Assembly (NCBI GenBank): GCA_009838735.1
Contig: VXQZ01000033.1
Coordinates: 1-50,825, forward strand
DNA from: Chloroflexota bacterium
GTDB lineage: Bacteria > Chloroflexota > Dehalococcoidia > Bin125
DNA: 50,825 bases
Reading direction: 5' to 3'
In this document: piece after piece, positions 21,159 to 32,266 of the stretch
How the letters are laid out: the number at the start of each line of letters is the position of its first letter
How positions within the stretch are numbered: position 1 is the stretch's first letter
Position numbers and translations under genes: made by a program
The notes under the pieces: generated by a model
Databases searched by the model: none
Told to the model about the DNA's origin: nothing
The model's input: only the letters and a program-made list of their open reading frames with translations

Positions 21159-21542
21159 TTAGATGCAGGAGCGAGCCTGGGAGGCGCCGCCCGCGTCGGC
21201 AGTGTCGAAGCTCGAACCGCAGGCGCAGGAGTGTGATGCGTTGGGGTTCGAGATCGAGAAGCCCTGCTTCATCACGTCGTCGATGTAGTCGACGCGCGAG
21301 CCGGAGATCAACGGGGCCGATTCCTCGTCGACGAGGAAGCGGACGCCGTTCTTCTCCACGACCTGGTCGCCTGCCTCGGCGTCGGTGGCCAGGGCCATGC
21401 CGTACTGGTAGCCGGAGCAGCCGCCGCCGACCACGAAGACGCGCAGCGCGCCCTCGGCAAAGCCCTTGTCTTCGAGCAGGGACTTGGCCTTCTCCGCAGC
21501 CAGGTCCGAAACGTCCAGCATTTCAGTCATCTGAAAGACCAT
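21159..21542 (-). CDS. A-type iron-sulfur carrier (ErpA/IscA/HesB family)
   Basis: The 127-residue protein is an A-type carrier that accepts Fe-S clusters from a scaffold and inserts them into apoproteins. The three cluster cysteines are in GGGCSGYQYGM and the SCACGSSF pair (C-x-C). A GFSISNPNASHSC segment precedes the pair, as in ErpA. It has a short alanine- and glycine-rich tail with one more cysteine (ARSCI). The ATG at 21542 has AGAGGA 8 nt upstream; the internal ATG at 21530 is less likely. It is divergent from a small membrane protein and the cysteine desulfurase about 0.6 kb away, a plausible sulfur donor. Confidence 0.9.
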   Translation of the reverse strand: MVFQMTEMLDVSDLAAEKAKSLLEDKGFAEGALRVFVVGGGCSGYQYGMALATDAEAGDQVVEKNGVRFLVDEESAPLISGSRVDYIDDVMKQGFSISNPNASHSCACGSSFDTADAGGASQARSCI

Positions 21543-21908: not shown

Positions 21909-21980
21909 GCCCCACTGGCATTATAAGAATCACGGTTCGGGTCTGGACCTCCCCGGATTTCCCAGGAATCGTTCTGCCAC

Positions 21981-22080
21981 GTCCCGGACAAACGCAGACA
22001 GGTCTGGAACAATCTGGACAAATCGGGACACAGGAATGGACGATCCCCAGTCCAGGACAAGAGATCTCTCCCGCGCAGCC
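21981..22080. repeat. 10-bp phased repeat array plus conserved block, copy 1 (before cysteine desulfurase)
   Basis: Five consecutive 10-bp units at 21981-22030 (gtcccggaca, aacgcagaca, ggtctggaac, aatctggaca, aatcgggaca) fit the consensus AATCTGGACA with decay at the left end. They are followed by a 50-bp block containing CGATCCCCAG (22041-22050) and GAGATC (22061-22066). The block aligns without gaps to the one after the array at 29341-29390. The end is about 60-80 bp before the cysteine desulfurase start. The rest of the 250-bp gap (21909-22158) shows no other feature. Confidence 0.65.
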
Positions 22081-22158
22081 AGATTCTCCTCGCGTCCATG
22101 CCTTCCAACCTCTGAGCAGTCCGAAGCGAGGACTGGAGTGCGGCGTTACTCTGACCTC

Positions 22159-23322
22159 ATGGAACGTGCATATTTCGATCATGCGGCGACGACTCCTCTG
22201 GATCCGCGGGTGCTTGAGGCGATGATCCCGGCACTCCAGTACGGCTGGGGGAACCCGTCGGGAATCTATCGGGAGGCGCAGTATGCGGCGGGCCTTCTCG
22301 ATCGGGCCCGGGATGACATCGCCGGGGTTCTGCAGTGTTCGCCTTCGGAAGTGGTGCTGACCTCAGGAGGGACGGAGTCCGACAACCTGGCGATCCGAGG
22401 CGCGGCGCTGGCCCGGGCAGAGGCGGGCCGGCACCTCATCACTCAGGCGACCGAGCATCATGCGGTCCTGCACACGATGGAGCAGCTTGAGCTCGAGGGG
22501 TTCGAGCTGACTGTGCTCAGTGTGGACGGCGAAGGATTCGTCGACCCCCATGACGTCGCTTCGGCAGTCCGTGACGACACAACAGTGGTCAGCATCATGT
22601 TGGCCAACAACGAGGTGGGAACCGTGCAGCCGGTCGCGGACATCGCGCGTGCAGTGAAGGCGAGAAATCGACGAACGATTGTGCATTCCGATGCGGTGCA
22701 GGCTGCCGGCGCGGTCGATATCCGTCCCGAAGTGTTGGGCGTCGACCTGATGTCGCTGACAGCGCACAAAATCTACGGCCCCAAGGGAGCAGGAGCGCTC
22801 TACGTGCGGCGCCGGACGCCGCTGCAGCCGCTGCAACTGGGCGGCGGTCAGGAGGAGGAGCGTCGGGCCGGCACGGAGTCGGTCGCGCAGGCGGTTGGCC
22901 TGGCCAAGGCGCTGCAGCTCGCTGAAGAGGAGCGCACGCAGCGGACGGGTCACGCCTCGGAGCTGCGCAACCGGTTGTGGCGCGAACTGAATGAGCGCGT
23001 CCATCCGATCCGTCTGAACGGGCCGTCGGACTGGTCCCGCCGCCTGGCGAACAACCTGAACGTCAGCTTTCCCGGCGTCGAAGGCGAGAGCATCTTGCTG
23101 CAGCTCGATCTGGAAGGGTTCGCGGCGTCATCCGGCAGCGCGTGCTCGACCGGCAGCACCGAGCCCAGCCACGTGCTTTCGGCGATGGGGCTCGATCCCG
23201 ACACCGCACACAGCACGCTGCGTCTGAGCCTGGGCCAAACGAACACTGAGGAACAGATCGAGAGCATCGCCGGAACGATCGAGGAGATCACGGCGCGACT
23301 CAGGGCACTCTCGCCCGTATAG
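22159..23322 (+). CDS. cysteine desulfurase (NifS/IscS family)
   Basis: The 387-residue PLP enzyme removes sulfur from L-cysteine as a persulfide for Fe-S clusters and other thio-cofactors. It starts MERAYFDHAATTPLDP. The PLP-stacking histidine is in TEHHAVL (100-101), SDAVQAAG binds the cofactor, the Schiff-base lysine is K204 in LTAHKIYGPKG, and the persulfide cysteine is C329 in SSGSACSTGS, the class I active-site loop. ATG 22159 matches family N termini. GTG at 22138 is in frame, has a better GAGGA Shine-Dalgarno and is a fair alternative. It is convergent with the AlkZ-like gene and probably supplies the ErpA-type carrier and the Fe-S proteins NuoB, NuoI and NuoG nearby. Confidence 0.92.
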   Translation: MERAYFDHAATTPLDPRVLEAMIPALQYGWGNPSGIYREAQYAAGLLDRARDDIAGVLQCSPSEVVLTSGGTESDNLAIRGAALARAEAGRHLITQATEHHAVLHTMEQLELEGFELTVLSVDGEGFVDPHDVASAVRDDTTVVSIMLANNEVGTVQPVADIARAVKARNRRTIVHSDAVQAAGAVDIRPEVLGVDLMSLTAHKIYGPKGAGALYVRRRTPLQPLQLGGGQEEERRAGTESVAQAVGLAKALQLAEEERTQRTGHASELRNRLWRELNERVHPIRLNGPSDWSRRLANNLNVSFPGVEGESILLQLDLEGFAASSGSACSTGSTEPSHVLSAMGLDPDTAHSTLRLSLGQTNTEEQIESIAGTIEEITARLRALSPV

Positions 23323-27110: not shown

Positions 27111-29039
27111 TCAGCAGCCGCCCCGCGGCAGCCGGAGGTTCAACTCGGCAGCAGCCAGCTCGCGCGCATTGAACTGGAGACCGGCGCTTGGACCTTGGAC
27201 GAGAGCCGCGCCGTCATAGAAGTAGTCGCATTCCCCATATCTGATGCGAAGCGCGTACGCCCCGTCGTCGGGAAACCGGATGGCGAAATTGCCGTCTTCC
27301 GAGGGTTGAGTTTGCGACCTGCCCGACTCACCTTCCACCGAGATGTCGTACGCGTCTACTGCTCTGCCGTTGGCGTCACGGAGCACGCCCGACGCGGCGA
27401 TGGTGCAGAACGGTTCGACGAGCTGAATGTCCAGGCTGACATCCTGATCGCTAACGGAGAATCGACCGGAGGAAAGGTCGTCGGGAGCTCGCGGAGCGCT
27501 GGCGCTTGTGACCTGGCAACCGTCGATGGAGAGCGCCAGGGCATACTCGTGCGGTTCGACAAAGAGGCTGTAGCCGCCGTCCGGCCATGACCAAGACAAT
27601 CTGGCGGCGCGAGCGCCGGATGTCTGGCGCAACCAGACCAATGCGCCAGGTAGCGGTTGGCCGAGATGATCGATGATCTGACCGCTTACCACGTGATTCC
27701 GCGTTGCGCCTTGCGCTGGCGATTGCGCTGAGTGGCAGGTGGAATCGACCTGGAAGTCGCCGAGGGTGCCGGTGATCAGCTTCGCGATGGGCGGGCTGTG
27801 CTCCAACAGGTGCAGGCGATTCTTGAATGGCATATCGAATGACTGGCCGGTGCCGACCCATGCGCCGACCGCTTCGGCCCAGAATTCGGCCGTGTTCGTC
27901 GCGCCATATGAGCCATCCCAGAGGCCGGAGTCCATTCCCGATCGGTACGCGCGGCCGAGCGAGCTCCTAAAGTTGCCACTCGAGGTTCCGCGACTCAGGG
28001 CGTAGTCGATCGCGTGGGCATATTCGTGGATCACGATGTCGTAACCCCAGGACCTGCCGCTAAGGCAGAGCACGTTTTCCTCGGGTACCAAGGCCGGCGT
28101 GAACTGGTTCGGCCCGAGCCCGCGAGGACCTCCTGGCCCGTGGGGTTCGAGCTTGACGATGTCCTGATACTGCCGGTACGGCGTCAGGTCGAAGGTCTGT
28201 TCCTCGCGACCGACAACTACAACGTGGACCCGGTGACGGATGAGGGTCTCGCGGATGTCGGGCCGGTTGACCAACATGTCGTCGAGGATGGCGGCGGCGC
28301 GGAAGAGCGCTTCGTCGGCGACGTTTTCGGTGGCGATGATTGCGATGCCGTCGGCGTCGAGGTACTTGTCGAATGAGGCGTACCAACGGACGTGGTCAGG
28401 CGGCGGACCGAGCAGATGGAGCGCGCGATCGCCGCTTGGCTGCAGCCAGTTTGTCTCTGTCGTGCTGAACACCCAGAGAGCGTCGCCTCGTCGCAACTGA
28501 TGCGAATGGCCAACGCTTGCCTTCGAATCCGGCTGATGCTTCCGCAATTCCCCGCTCTCCGGCGTGGAGTAGAGGGCGTGCGTGAATGAATCGCCGACGG
28601 ACCGGAGCGCCAGATCGATCGGGGTTCCGCTGGGTCCGGTCCAGGCGACGAGGTTCGGCCCGGACTGCAATCCGACCCACTCACCGTCGGCGGCAGTCGG
28701 CTGAAGCCACTCCACGGGAGCGTCGCCGGCGATGCGTACGATCAGACCCATCCCGGGTTCCAGCACTGGCAGCGTTGCGTCAAGGCCGCGAGCGGCAAAT
28801 CGGTACTGGGCAGACTCGGCGTCCCAGGTGTAAATCAGTTCCGCTTCAGGAATCTGAGCGAACACATCCCGCGTCGACGCAGGAAACCCAACCCAGCCAA
28901 CGAGATTGTCCCCCGGCTGCAGCGTTCGCAGGTTCTTCGGCGGCTCCGGTTCGGCGAGCAGGGCTGGGGCGAGCAGCAGGCTGAGGAGCGCTGCCACCAA
29001 GACGACCGAGAGGCGTGCGAGTCGGATACGGCCAATCAC
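27111..29039 (-). CDS. secreted HExxH metallopeptidase with two WLQP domains and two carboxypeptidase-regulatory-like domains
   Basis: The 642-residue protein begins with a signal peptide (about 1-30, cleaved near ALLAEPEP). Residues 38-115 and 120-202 are two copies of an ~80-residue domain of pattern LQPGxNLVxWtG ... WDA ... G.alwV ... WLQP. Residues about 215-450 are a gluzincin-like peptidase with zinc site HEYAH (His338, His342) and a likely third ligand in TAEFWAEAV (Glu385 or Glu389). Two beta-sandwich domains follow (about 460-640): VSGQIIDHLGQPLPGALVWL and ASGVLRDANGRAVDAYDISV. It should cleave proteins outside the cell. GTG 29039 gives an ideal signal peptide; ATG 29141 is possible. 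It sits between nuoI and the nuoG-like gene, which run the other way. Confidence 0.8.
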   Translation of the reverse strand: MIGRIRLARLSVVLVAALLSLLLAPALLAEPEPPKNLRTLQPGDNLVGWVGFPASTRDVFAQIPEAELIYTWDAESAQYRFAARGLDATLPVLEPGMGLIVRIAGDAPVEWLQPTAADGEWVGLQSGPNLVAWTGPSGTPIDLALRSVGDSFTHALYSTPESGELRKHQPDSKASVGHSHQLRRGDALWVFSTTETNWLQPSGDRALHLLGPPPDHVRWYASFDKYLDADGIAIIATENVADEALFRAAAILDDMLVNRPDIRETLIRHRVHVVVVGREEQTFDLTPYRQYQDIVKLEPHGPGGPRGLGPNQFTPALVPEENVLCLSGRSWGYDIVIHEYAHAIDYALSRGTSSGNFRSSLGRAYRSGMDSGLWDGSYGATNTAEFWAEAVGAWVGTGQSFDMPFKNRLHLLEHSPPIAKLITGTLGDFQVDSTCHSAQSPAQGATRNHVVSGQIIDHLGQPLPGALVWLRQTSGARAARLSWSWPDGGYSLFVEPHEYALALSIDGCQVTSASAPRAPDDLSSGRFSVSDQDVSLDIQLVEPFCTIAASGVLRDANGRAVDAYDISVEGESGRSQTQPSEDGNFAIRFPDDGAYALRIRYGECDYFYDGAALVQGPSAGLQFNARELAAAELNLRLPRGGC

Positions 29040-29641
29040 TGCGACGCCATCAGCCTCTCGAATCTGCCGGTCGGTACGGTGTTCCAACGGGGTGCGCTCG
29101 AACAGAATGCTACTTGCCGCTTGAACAGGTGCTGAGTGCATGCCACCGTCTACGTTCACACGACAACGTCCCCGGTCGGCTGCCGCTGCGCTCCTCTGCG
29201 GTGGAAACCGAATACGATCAGAACATACGATCTTCCTGCACCAGGGCTCGACCGTCTGCTTTGTCGACATCCTCGCCGGAAACTGCAGAATCCTGGAACA
29301 GAGCGGAATTGCCTGGAGGAACACTGACAAAACCGAGCCAGATCTGGACGAATCTGGACAAATCTGGACAAATCTGGACAAATCCGGACACTGCAACGCA
29401 CGATCCCCAGCCTGAGACAGGAGATCCTGCCCCGATCGCCGAATATTCCCGTCCGAAAGGCCGAATTGGCTGTGGCATCAATGGCACGCTTCGCAGGGGT
29501 TCGGTGGAAGATGAACAAGCGATCATCGCGATGCCGCTGCCCCGGTTGTCGGGAACGAGCGGGCCAGGTCGCCAGAAGAGGTGCTGGTAGACTGAGCCGC
29601 GGTGCCGCGTGCTTGCGGCAGGCTGCATCTGGGGAGGCCCT
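29040..29641. other. 602-bp divergent intergenic region
   Basis: The longest gene-free stretch in the window. It lies between the divergent metallopeptidase and NuoG-like genes. It contains the second phased repeat array (29341-29440) about 200 bp before the nuoG-like start. In-frame extensions of both neighbours run through it, but neither resembles a known protein. Apart from the array I see no gene or RNA in it. Confidence 0.5.
29341..29440. repeat. 10-bp phased repeat array plus conserved block, copy 2 (before the nuoG-like gene)
   Basis: Five head-to-tail 10-bp units at 29341-29390 read gatctggacg, aatctggaca (three times) and aatccggaca. The 50-bp block after it contains CGATCCCCAG (29401-29410) and GAGATC (29421-29426) and aligns without gaps with the block after the array at 21981-22030. 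The regular 10-bp spacing puts every unit on the same face of the DNA helix. It lies about 200 bp before the nuoG-like start and about 300 bp before the metallopeptidase start on the other strand. Confidence 0.75.
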
Positions 29642-32266
29642 ATGGCGACGATCACGATCAATGGACGGGCGGTCGAGGCTGAGGTTGGCGCTCCGCTGGT
29701 CGAGGTGATCAAGAACGCCGGCTTCCCGATTTCCAACCTGTGCTACCTGGATGGGTTGCCCCCCTACGCCGGCTGCCGCACGTGTGCAGTCGAGGTCGAG
29801 GGCATGCGTGGTTTGCCCCTGTCCTGCACCACGACCGTGATGGACGGCATGGTCGTACGCACCGACACGCCGGAAGTGACCGAGATGCGCCAGGAGGTCC
29901 TGGCGGTCATCCTGGCAAACCATTCGGATCGCTGTCTGACCTGTCACCGAATCGAGCACTGCCGCACCGGTGAAATCTGCCTGCGCGACAACGAGGTCAC
30001 CCACCGTTGCGTGACGTGCTCGAAGAACTACCGATGTGAGCTGCAGACCACCTGCGACGCAGCCGATGTTGGACGCGCCAACGTCGAGCCATACATCGAC
30101 GAGGCGCGCACCTACTACCGGCATCAGCAGCCTGAGCCTGACCGCGCGAATCCGTTCTTCGAGTTCGACCCGCAAATGTGCATCATCTGCACGCGCTGTG
30201 TTCGCGCCTGCGACGATTTGCGTCACACGACCGCGATCACGCTGGCGGGCCGAGGGTTCTCGACCATGATCGCGTTTGGCGCGGGAGGACGCATTGACGA
30301 GTCGAACTGCGACTTTTGCGGTTCGTGCGTCGACGTATGCCCGACGGCAACGCTGATGGAAGCGCCGAACAAGTGGGTCGCCCGGCCTGACAAGTGGGTG
30401 ACGACTACCTGCACCGAGTGCTCGATGGGCTGCACGATTCAGATGGGCGTGCGCGACGGCCGCGGCGTGCAGGTTCGGCCGGGCAACGGCAACGACGTGT
30501 CGCGTTCGCAGATCTGCGTACGCGGACGATTCGGCTACGACCAGACCCGAGACAAGGATCGACTGCGCGCCGCCTCGATCGGTCGGGGCGAGGACGCGTT
30601 CGAACAGGACGGGGATGCGGTCGCGGAGCACGCGGCGGCGGCGATCTCGGCGATCCTTGCTGAGCACGGCCCGTCTGCGGTGGGCATCCTCGGCTCGGGG
30701 CAAATGACGCTTGAGGAGCTGTACGCGCTTCGCACCCTGGCGACCCGCCTGGGAATCACCAATCTCGATTCCTCATTGGGACCGGTCACCGCCGCAGTTG
30801 GCGCGGCGCTCACCGACGCGTTTGGCTCGGAGCACCTGCCCTCGCGTCTGACATCGGTGGAGACGGCCGATCTGATCATCGCAATGGGTGACGACATTTC
30901 CGCCTCGAACAACGTGCTCGGCGTGCGGATCAAGGACGCGGTTGCCAACAACGGCGCGTCGTTGGTCAGCATTTCGTCGCGTCGCAATCCCTTGGCCGAC
31001 TATGCGGTCGACGAGGCGCACGCGATCCATCCCGCCGACGGCGACCTTGCAAGCGTCGCGCAGGCGATTGCGACAAACGTAGTCAAGGATCTCGATGTCC
31101 GGACGGGACTGTCCGACGTTGACGGCCTGTCAGATGTGAGTGGCTCCGCCGATGGCGTCGAGGCGTCGTCGGTGACCGCGCTTCGCCGGCGCGGAGGCGC
31201 GGTTGCGATCGTGGTCGCTCCTTCACGCACCAACGCCGCCCAGGCAGGTGCACAGGTGCGAGCGGCGGCAAATCTGGCGATCGCGCTGGCGGGTCCGGCC
31301 GACGCGCCGGCCTCTCTGCACGTGCTGCCGCCGGAATCGAATTCCGTAGGACTCCGAGACCTCGGTGTCGTCCCCGGCGAGGCAGGACTCGATGTCTCCT
31401 CGATGTTGAAGGCGGCGCAAGAGGGCACAGTGAAGGCCCTAATCGTGGCGCGAGACAACCCGGTGATGCTGCATCCCGACCACACGGCGACGATTGCCGC
31501 GCTGGAGAATCTCGACGTTCTCGTCGTGATTGATGAAGTCGCAACGCAGACCGTGCAACTGGCCACGCATGTCTTGCCCGATGCTTCGGCATTCGGCAAG
31601 GATGGCCACATCACCAATGCCGACCGGCAGATTCTTCGCCTGCGAACCGCGACGATTGACCAACGTAACGCGCGTCCGCTGGGACTCTGGCTGGCGGCTC
31701 TGGCGGCACATCTACCAGCGGTCGATACACCGACGACCAACGAAGACGGCGAACCGGGCAGTCCGATTCCGGCGCCGGAGCAGCCTCAGAATGTGGGCGA
31801 GGCCCGAACGGCACTGGCCGGGGTGGACAGCCGATACTCGGCACTCCTCGAGGCCGGAGCCAGCCAGTCTCGAATGGCGATCAACGGTGCGGCAACGCAA
31901 CGTTTCCTCAGCGTCGAGGCCACTGGAGCTGCAAACGGCGACGGATCGCTCACGCTGCTGTCAGGACGCGATCTCTACAGCGATCGGCTCTCGGCTGCGC
32001 GCGGCGAGGTCAATGCCGACCTGTTGCAACGCTCGGACACGGTGCAGATCAATCCGGGCGACGCAGCGTCACTGGGGATCGAAGATGGTGCAGTCGTGAT
32101 CCTGACCCGCAACGACAGCCGGATCAGCCTGGCGGCGGAGATTACCGAGGACGTGCCCAGCGGCGCAGTCTGGGTCTCGGCCCTCCACGAACACGGAGCC
32201 GTGCAAGAACTGCAGTCCGCGGGCGCCAATCGACTCGCCTCGGTGCAGATTGAGGTTGCTGGATAG
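29642..32266 (+). CDS. nuoG: NuoG-like multi-Fe-S protein of the molybdopterin oxidoreductase family
   Basis: The 874-residue protein is the complex I G-subunit type, which takes electrons into the Fe-S chain. It has a 2Fe-2S ferredoxin domain (C34, C45, C48, C62). Next comes an unusual C98, C101, C107, C113 cluster, then the usual H/C cluster region (H121, C123, C126, C132). Two 4Fe-4S ferredoxin motifs follow (C180/183/186/190 and C223/226/229/233), then the N7-type site C257, C260, C264, C292. The rest is a molybdopterin-oxidoreductase fold without the catalytic Cys/Sec, so no molybdenum chemistry is expected. GGGGAGG lies 5 nt before ATG 29642. No NuoE or NuoF gene is adjacent; a formate-dehydrogenase- or hydrogenase-associated role is an alternative. 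Confidence 0.87.
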   Translation: MATITINGRAVEAEVGAPLVEVIKNAGFPISNLCYLDGLPPYAGCRTCAVEVEGMRGLPLSCTTTVMDGMVVRTDTPEVTEMRQEVLAVILANHSDRCLTCHRIEHCRTGEICLRDNEVTHRCVTCSKNYRCELQTTCDAADVGRANVEPYIDEARTYYRHQQPEPDRANPFFEFDPQMCIICTRCVRACDDLRHTTAITLAGRGFSTMIAFGAGGRIDESNCDFCGSCVDVCPTATLMEAPNKWVARPDKWVTTTCTECSMGCTIQMGVRDGRGVQVRPGNGNDVSRSQICVRGRFGYDQTRDKDRLRAASIGRGEDAFEQDGDAVAEHAAAAISAILAEHGPSAVGILGSGQMTLEELYALRTLATRLGITNLDSSLGPVTAAVGAALTDAFGSEHLPSRLTSVETADLIIAMGDDISASNNVLGVRIKDAVANNGASLVSISSRRNPLADYAVDEAHAIHPADGDLASVAQAIATNVVKDLDVRTGLSDVDGLSDVSGSADGVEASSVTALRRRGGAVAIVVAPSRTNAAQAGAQVRAAANLAIALAGPADAPASLHVLPPESNSVGLRDLGVVPGEAGLDVSSMLKAAQEGTVKALIVARDNPVMLHPDHTATIAALENLDVLVVIDEVATQTVQLATHVLPDASAFGKDGHITNADRQILRLRTATIDQRNARPLGLWLAALAAHLPAVDTPTTNEDGEPGSPIPAPEQPQNVGEARTALAGVDSRYSALLEAGASQSRMAINGAATQRFLSVEATGAANGDGSLTLLSGRDLYSDRLSAARGEVNADLLQRSDTVQINPGDAASLGIEDGAVVILTRNDSRISLAAEITEDVPSGAVWVSALHEHGAVQELQSAGANRLASVQIEVAG

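Follow-up and report, generated by a model that had tools for sequence, protein, structure and literature searches.

The E. coli gyrase motif is 130 bp long and symmetric, with a 36-bp centre, two 47-bp arms and a period of 10.75, and some gyrase sites lie within dispersed intergenic repeats (BIME-2) (PMC6379681). This motif and the strong gyrase sites (Mu SGS; PMC6379681) resemble the element described here in being long and degenerate, in alternating between A/T and G/C once per turn and in suiting wrapping. The phased alternation over more than 100 bp is found in the element (period 10.40-10.45, power 0.24-0.32 vs shuffled maxima of 0.08-0.13), but a period of ~10.75 and symmetric arms are not: the element is ~165 bp long and directional with a period of 10.4, its centre is its most periodic part and carries a fixed word, and a dyad lies on one side. 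Because period, symmetry and centre differ, membership of the gyrase motif is not claimed, and the motif is regarded as the closest known analogue. REP/BIME, Correia, ERIC and RPE repeats (PMC2229807) are also present as tens of short non-coding copies, mostly intergenic and sometimes in frame within proteins, and form lineage-restricted sub-families. Unlike these, the element is built of 10-bp phased words and not of terminal inverted repeats, no target duplication was seen at two sites, and RAYT/Y1 is absent in element-rich genomes.

Most dispersed repeats of bacteria are palindromes or relics of transposons, and in gyrase and nucleosome sites the structural code of the DNA is as a rule degenerate and difficult to make out by eye; in the present case this code takes the form of discrete, countable elements, in which words change and helical phase stays constant. 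Arrays with a spacing of one helical turn are known from two further systems. MraZ boxes are head-to-tail sites one turn apart that are bound on one DNA face, and the ParR/parC centromeres are head-to-tail binding arrays of 10-11-bp direct repeats, also bound on one DNA face. The element differs from both in reaching up to 16 turns, in occupying dozens of loci, in having several alternative words and in carrying a downstream dyad, and the genus's own mraZ operator has another word than the element.

Two copies in the window and their family in the genome

The window is the whole stretch of DNA that was analysed, 50,825 nucleotides, and corresponds to positions 1-50825 of contig 46 of its own genome (G000; 3.15 Mb, 56 contigs). 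A first-pass annotation had described two five-unit arrays in 10-bp phase, each followed by a similar block, as a shared 100-bp organisation that chance could hardly explain. Both arrays are real, with five units each in register (Table 1), and the 50 bases 3' of each align without gaps and contain CGATCCCCAG in register (22041-22050 in copy 1, where it is the left arm of the dyad module, and 29401-29410 in copy 2). At three mismatches or fewer, CTGGACAAATCTGGACAAAT gave 5 matches in the window vs 0.01 expected from shuffles, which is beyond chance. The shared organisation is present, but the size of the element is ~165 bp and not 100 bp. The units of the first array in register are cgtcccggac, aaacgcagac, aggtctggaa, caatctggac and aaatcgggac, only two or three of the five being near consensus.

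Table 1 Features of the two element copies and neighbouring genes in the window
Feature	Position	Strand	Remark
Phased element copy 1 (whole)	21929..22093	+	-101 to +64 around end of last array unit
R1 model match to copy 1	21935-22093		83.7 bits
Copy 1 core array, five degenerate 10-bp units	21980..22029	+	
Copy 1 dyad module GATCCCCAGTCCAGGACAAGAGATC, imperfect inverted repeat	22042..22066	+	
NifS/IscS-type cysteine desulfurase	22159..23322	+	Neighbour of copy 1
Phased element copy 2 (whole)	29289..29453	+	R1 model match 29288-29453, 115.9 bits
Copy 2 array, five near-perfect 10-bp units (AAATCTGGAC)	29340..29389	+	
Copy 2 dyad module GATCCCCAGCCTGAGACAGGAGATC	29402..29426	+	
NuoG-like / formate-dehydrogenase-like multi-Fe-S molybdopterin oxidoreductase	29642..32266	+	Neighbour of copy 2

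An ErpA/IscA-type Fe-S carrier gene (21159-21542, minus strand) adjoins the nifS locus, so that two Fe-S genes lie around copy 1. To the left of copy 2 lies a 682-aa ORF (27111-29159, minus strand) with no NCBIfam matches at 1e-5.

Genome-wide, an 18-base array pattern had 64 matches on the plus and 54 on the minus strand of G000 (118 vs 1 for the reversed control), which collapse to ~40 arrays in both orientations, or about one per 60 kb. When 38 copies were aligned on the end of the last unit, conserved columns extended from about -101 to +64. The left arm consists of looser CCnGGA units, the core is the AAATCTGGAC array at -40 to -1 with many columns at 2 bits, the dyad module (GATCnCCAG..CnGGAGATC) lies near +12 to +36, and the right arm ends in CCGAAAATTCCCC. 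Array and dyad are separated by 30, 40 or 50 bp, all multiples of 10, in 65 of the 68 typical-family copies. Paralogous copies are otherwise much diverged, with a mean column identity of 59%, and sub-families with common arms are present (e.g. L018/L042 and L003/L007/L009/L011). Even spacing of copies was rejected as a general rule, being nominal in G011 only (p 0.013; G006, p 0.15), and KOPS-like polarity was rejected on the mixed orientations along single G011 contigs.

Gene context and operator readings

Copies were found in all four intergenic gene arrangements, including between convergent genes. One site lies between sdhA and sdhB, within one operon, and in recG of six species (L004, L064, L068, L086, L160, L161) a copy encodes a variable linker after the N-terminal region. 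Copy 1 adjoins the cysteine desulfurase gene and copy 2 the NuoG-like gene, as the first-pass annotation had stated when it proposed a common operator of an Fe-S/respiratory regulon, and elsewhere SdhB also adjoins a copy, with the ErpA-like gene near the desulfurase as a further Fe-S neighbour. The desulfurase, the NuoG-like protein and SdhB are the only clearly Fe-S products among the 36 right-hand genes, which have no common function; the other 33 are unrelated (enoyl-CoA hydratases, CoA-transferases, luciferase-like oxidases, Mur ligases, RNase D-like and others). A check of orientation and gene context across the genome copies found unrelated neighbours in both orientations, which the annotation itself had named as evidence against its proposal, and the element is absent at nifS in nine congeners examined and present there in G000, G011 and G006. 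Because of these contexts, including the copies inside the sdhA-sdhB operon and in recG coding DNA, an Fe-S operator is excluded, and a single-gene operator role is unlikely as a general function.

A broader operator reading, in which a polymerising regulator would bind every 10 bp and control whichever gene lies downstream, draws on the orientation of the copies. They tend to follow the direction of the downstream gene, with 18 copies along it vs 4 opposed to it among co-directional gene pairs in G000 (p 0.004) and 51 vs 19 overall, where counts are not independent; gene calls for both counts came from a simple codon-usage finder. Many copies also lie 40-250 bp upstream of a start, and MraZ, a known binder of 10-bp-spaced repeats, is encoded in 15 of 15 genomes. 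This reading has only a small chance, as some copies separate convergent genes or lie within the sdhA-sdhB operon or recG, and as the 36 neighbours lack a common function. The mraZ promoter carries TGGGGAAAAGTGG-type boxes and not the element word, and the element as an MraZ operator was rejected on the finding that mraZ promoters mostly have boxes of this type and not TGGACAAATC. At L131 and other mraZ loci, most congeners keep canonical-looking MraZ boxes (TGGGGAAAAGTGG, 10-bp spacing), in contrast to the element word. In both G000 and G011 (L285/L286), the left-hand frame at the copy upstream of rsmI apparently continues across the element, which would then encode a proline-rich tail.

Helical phasing, words and the dyad

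Across 37 aligned copies, G+C and A columns rise and fall nearly in antiphase, with a 10.4-bp period that extends along the entire element, including the arms. One phase runs from the left arm through the core to the right arm, and DNA immediately beyond the element shows no lag-10 signal. The best period over -101..+64 is 10.40-10.45 bp (A up to 10.5). The G+C power was 0.24 in the G000 copies against a shuffled maximum of 0.08, 0.27 vs 0.13 in 111 typical copies and 0.32 vs 0.13 in 28 copies sorted as word-variants, the phase being nearly equal throughout. About 8 of the 28 resemble typical copies in shifted register, and the set therefore speaks less strongly for other words (CCTGAAAAAA, TCTGACCAAA, CCGATCAAAA etc.) than its number would imply. 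The periodicity of single copies had a z of 3.7 for the whole element, 2.6 for the arms alone, which played no part in copy finding, and -0.2 for the flanks, and CCGAACA arrays found by pattern alone had weaker arm periodicity (z 0.9). Predicted curvature, from a wedge model, was modest (z 1.3 in elements vs -0.1 in flanks). The period is 10.0 bp in the core and 10.5-10.7 bp in the left arm, and the mean of the two is about the helical repeat of relaxed B-DNA. Indels inside elements comprised 16 of exactly 10 bp vs 3 of 9 bp and 3 of 11 bp. General intergenic periodicity was rejected, as other intergenic DNA of the window is not 10-periodic, and an archaeal-type nucleosome site was rejected on the distribution of the histone fold PF00808, which was present in 0 of 15 genomes and found in three archaeal controls.

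The ten-base word varies by family and species (TCTGGACAAA, TCTGACCAAA, CCTGAAAAAA, CCGAACANNN, CCGATCAAAA), and helical phase and the downstream GATCYCCAG...GGAGATC module are largely kept across word families. The word TCTGGACAAA is abundant in G000, G011, G002 and G005, where TCTGACCAAA is absent, and the opposite is seen in G013; CCGAACANNN is present in 11 genomes. A single word is present in both G000 and G002 at the mur locus that follows an rnpB-like sequence; the units there are of the CCGATCAAA type in G006, and the remaining genomes lack them. The G000 loci found only by the CCGAACA pattern often extend into an array of CCTGAAAAAA units with a clear inverted repeat of the form CACGATCYCCAG-loop-CTGGAGATCGTG. 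In the CCTGAAAAAA family this inverted repeat is strong, with a net stem of 7.4 vs 4.4 after shuffling, and in the TCTGGACAAA family it is weak. The dyad pairs of the CCTGAAAAAA family (C-family) showed no covariation beyond shuffles, and a DNA dyad is therefore likelier than an RNA hairpin. In some CCGAACA arrays (L298, L338, L344) the last CCGAAC unit is followed by GCGTTCGG, which completes a perfect palindrome of 14 bp, CCGAACGCGTTCGG. A further palindromic repeat that is dispersed, represented by CCGCTCCCCCTTTGGGGGAGCTGCCGAAGGCTGAGGGGG, is intergenic at the ECH and mur loci of G007, G009 and G001 (L262, L261, L275).

The same data bear on an element acting at the RNA level, such as a Rho-utilisation site (C-rich, with YC every ~10 nt) or an attenuator. 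The composition is strand-asymmetric (C 0.33, G 0.21, A 0.30, T 0.16), YC recurs in each turn and the orientation is biased, all as such an element might have; it is nevertheless very improbable, given that 8 of 10 folds, both window copies included, had z between -1.6 and 0.8, that the consensus fold contained no two-sided change, and that the dyad pairs lack covariation as described above. Copies also lie within an operon and between divergent genes, the 10.4-bp helical period and the A/GC antiphase are properties of DNA, and an Rfam search of the window gave no match. The second suggestion of the first-pass annotation, a dispersed structured element, thus stands for dispersal, but the order resides in DNA helical phase and the dyad, not in RNA structure.

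A candidate bending or wrapping site and its mobile-repeat rival

The phase-coherent alternation, the whole-turn steps between array and dyad and the changing of words at constant phase fit indirect readout by a bending or wrapping protein. The arrays are best read, with a probability of roughly 0.5, as copies of a dispersed, genus-specific, ~165-bp DNA-bending or wrapping site with copy-and-drift ancestry, and we infer that a protein bends or wraps the element and that the element serves to organise the chromosome and not to control single genes. As A-rich and G/C-rich patches alternate once per turn (10.4 bp) for ~16 turns, the A-rich minor grooves all face one side; DNA phased in this way is bent, or easily bent, in one direction, and suits a wrapping or bending protein, be it a nucleoid protein or an enzyme like gyrase. 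The central word array is the strongest part of the element, and the dyad, which lies ~12 bp downstream of the array and keeps to one helical face, probably offers a dimeric protein a second point of contact. Copies would have arisen by copying within the genome and then have remained in place and drifted. Against the bending reading, slippage among similar units could account for the gain and loss of 10-bp steps, and common descent instead of selection for the constant register of array and dyad; word conservation within families exceeds what indirect readout alone needs, and a purely architectural site would have no need to favour the direction of the downstream gene. A more specific proposal is put forward tentatively: a lineage-specific chromosome-organising system may exist in which the wrapping protein reads the ~165-bp elements mainly by helical phase, the word turning over between species or families in step with the protein and the once-per-turn A-tract phase and the dyad remaining fixed. 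Should a wrapping protein be confirmed, direct and indirect readout could be told apart in these genomes, which would also offer a natural set of strong wrapping sites ~60 kb apart.

The element is confined to one Dehalococcoidia genus, whose members we take to be sponge symbionts, judging from isolate names and general knowledge. Of the 15 genomes of the genus, 8 have the array pattern, counting that of the window, and none of 46 other genomes of the family and class has it; two array-only matches were found in unrelated bacteria. With the R1 sequence model, seven genomes of the genus had 58, 57, 51, 48, 46, 40 and 26 copies, five other congeners had few, and G003, G004 and G012 had none; the E-values of the model are rough, and its weak matches in G014, G013 and G006 include other word families. 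As three congeners (G003, G004 and G012) lack the element, it is not essential. Most G000 copies have a counterpart beside the same genes in the nearest relative, G011, and thus occupy orthologous sites; conservation between the two genomes was 0.90 in the core vs 0.77-0.81 in the flanks, in a set that includes some paralogous pairings (L040, L045, L046).

This distribution bears on the strongest rival to a bending or wrapping site, a miniature repeat of the RPE, Correia or REPIN kind, non-autonomous and mobile or selfish, whose phased words and dyad would bind its own mobilising protein with no gain to the chromosome. Such a repeat would suit the sub-families with common arms, the patchy species distribution, the turnover of word families between species, the inverted repeat 3' of the array, strong in the CCTGAAAAAA family, and the presence of the element in protein linkers, as reported for RPE (PMC2229807). 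It is a possible but doubtful explanation. Neither terminal inverted repeats nor target duplications were seen by eye at two filled/empty sites (sdhA-sdhB and ECH), which are old and diverged, Y1 transposase is absent from every element-rich genome, and copies are mostly orthologous in site and much diverged, which indicates no recent movement. There was no plasmid or viral-contig match, and mobility leaves the 10.4-bp phasing over 16 turns unexplained. A mobile origin may be compatible with a present architectural role. A REP/RAYT system was rejected, PF01797 (Y1) being missing in 14 of 15 genomes, among them every element-rich one, as was a phage or plasmid origin, the searches having returned no viral-contig or plasmid matches and one weak 64-bp phage match. 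This match lies at 381-443 of MT839301.1, an unannotated 4.4-kb faecal phage record, in which 64 bases are 79.7% identical to the array. At the rnpB-mur junction (L271/L272), the element and much of its surroundings are identical in G000 and G002, species that differ elsewhere, and G011, which is closer to G000 than G002 is, has another arrangement; the identity reflects either recent recombination or MAG cross-binning.
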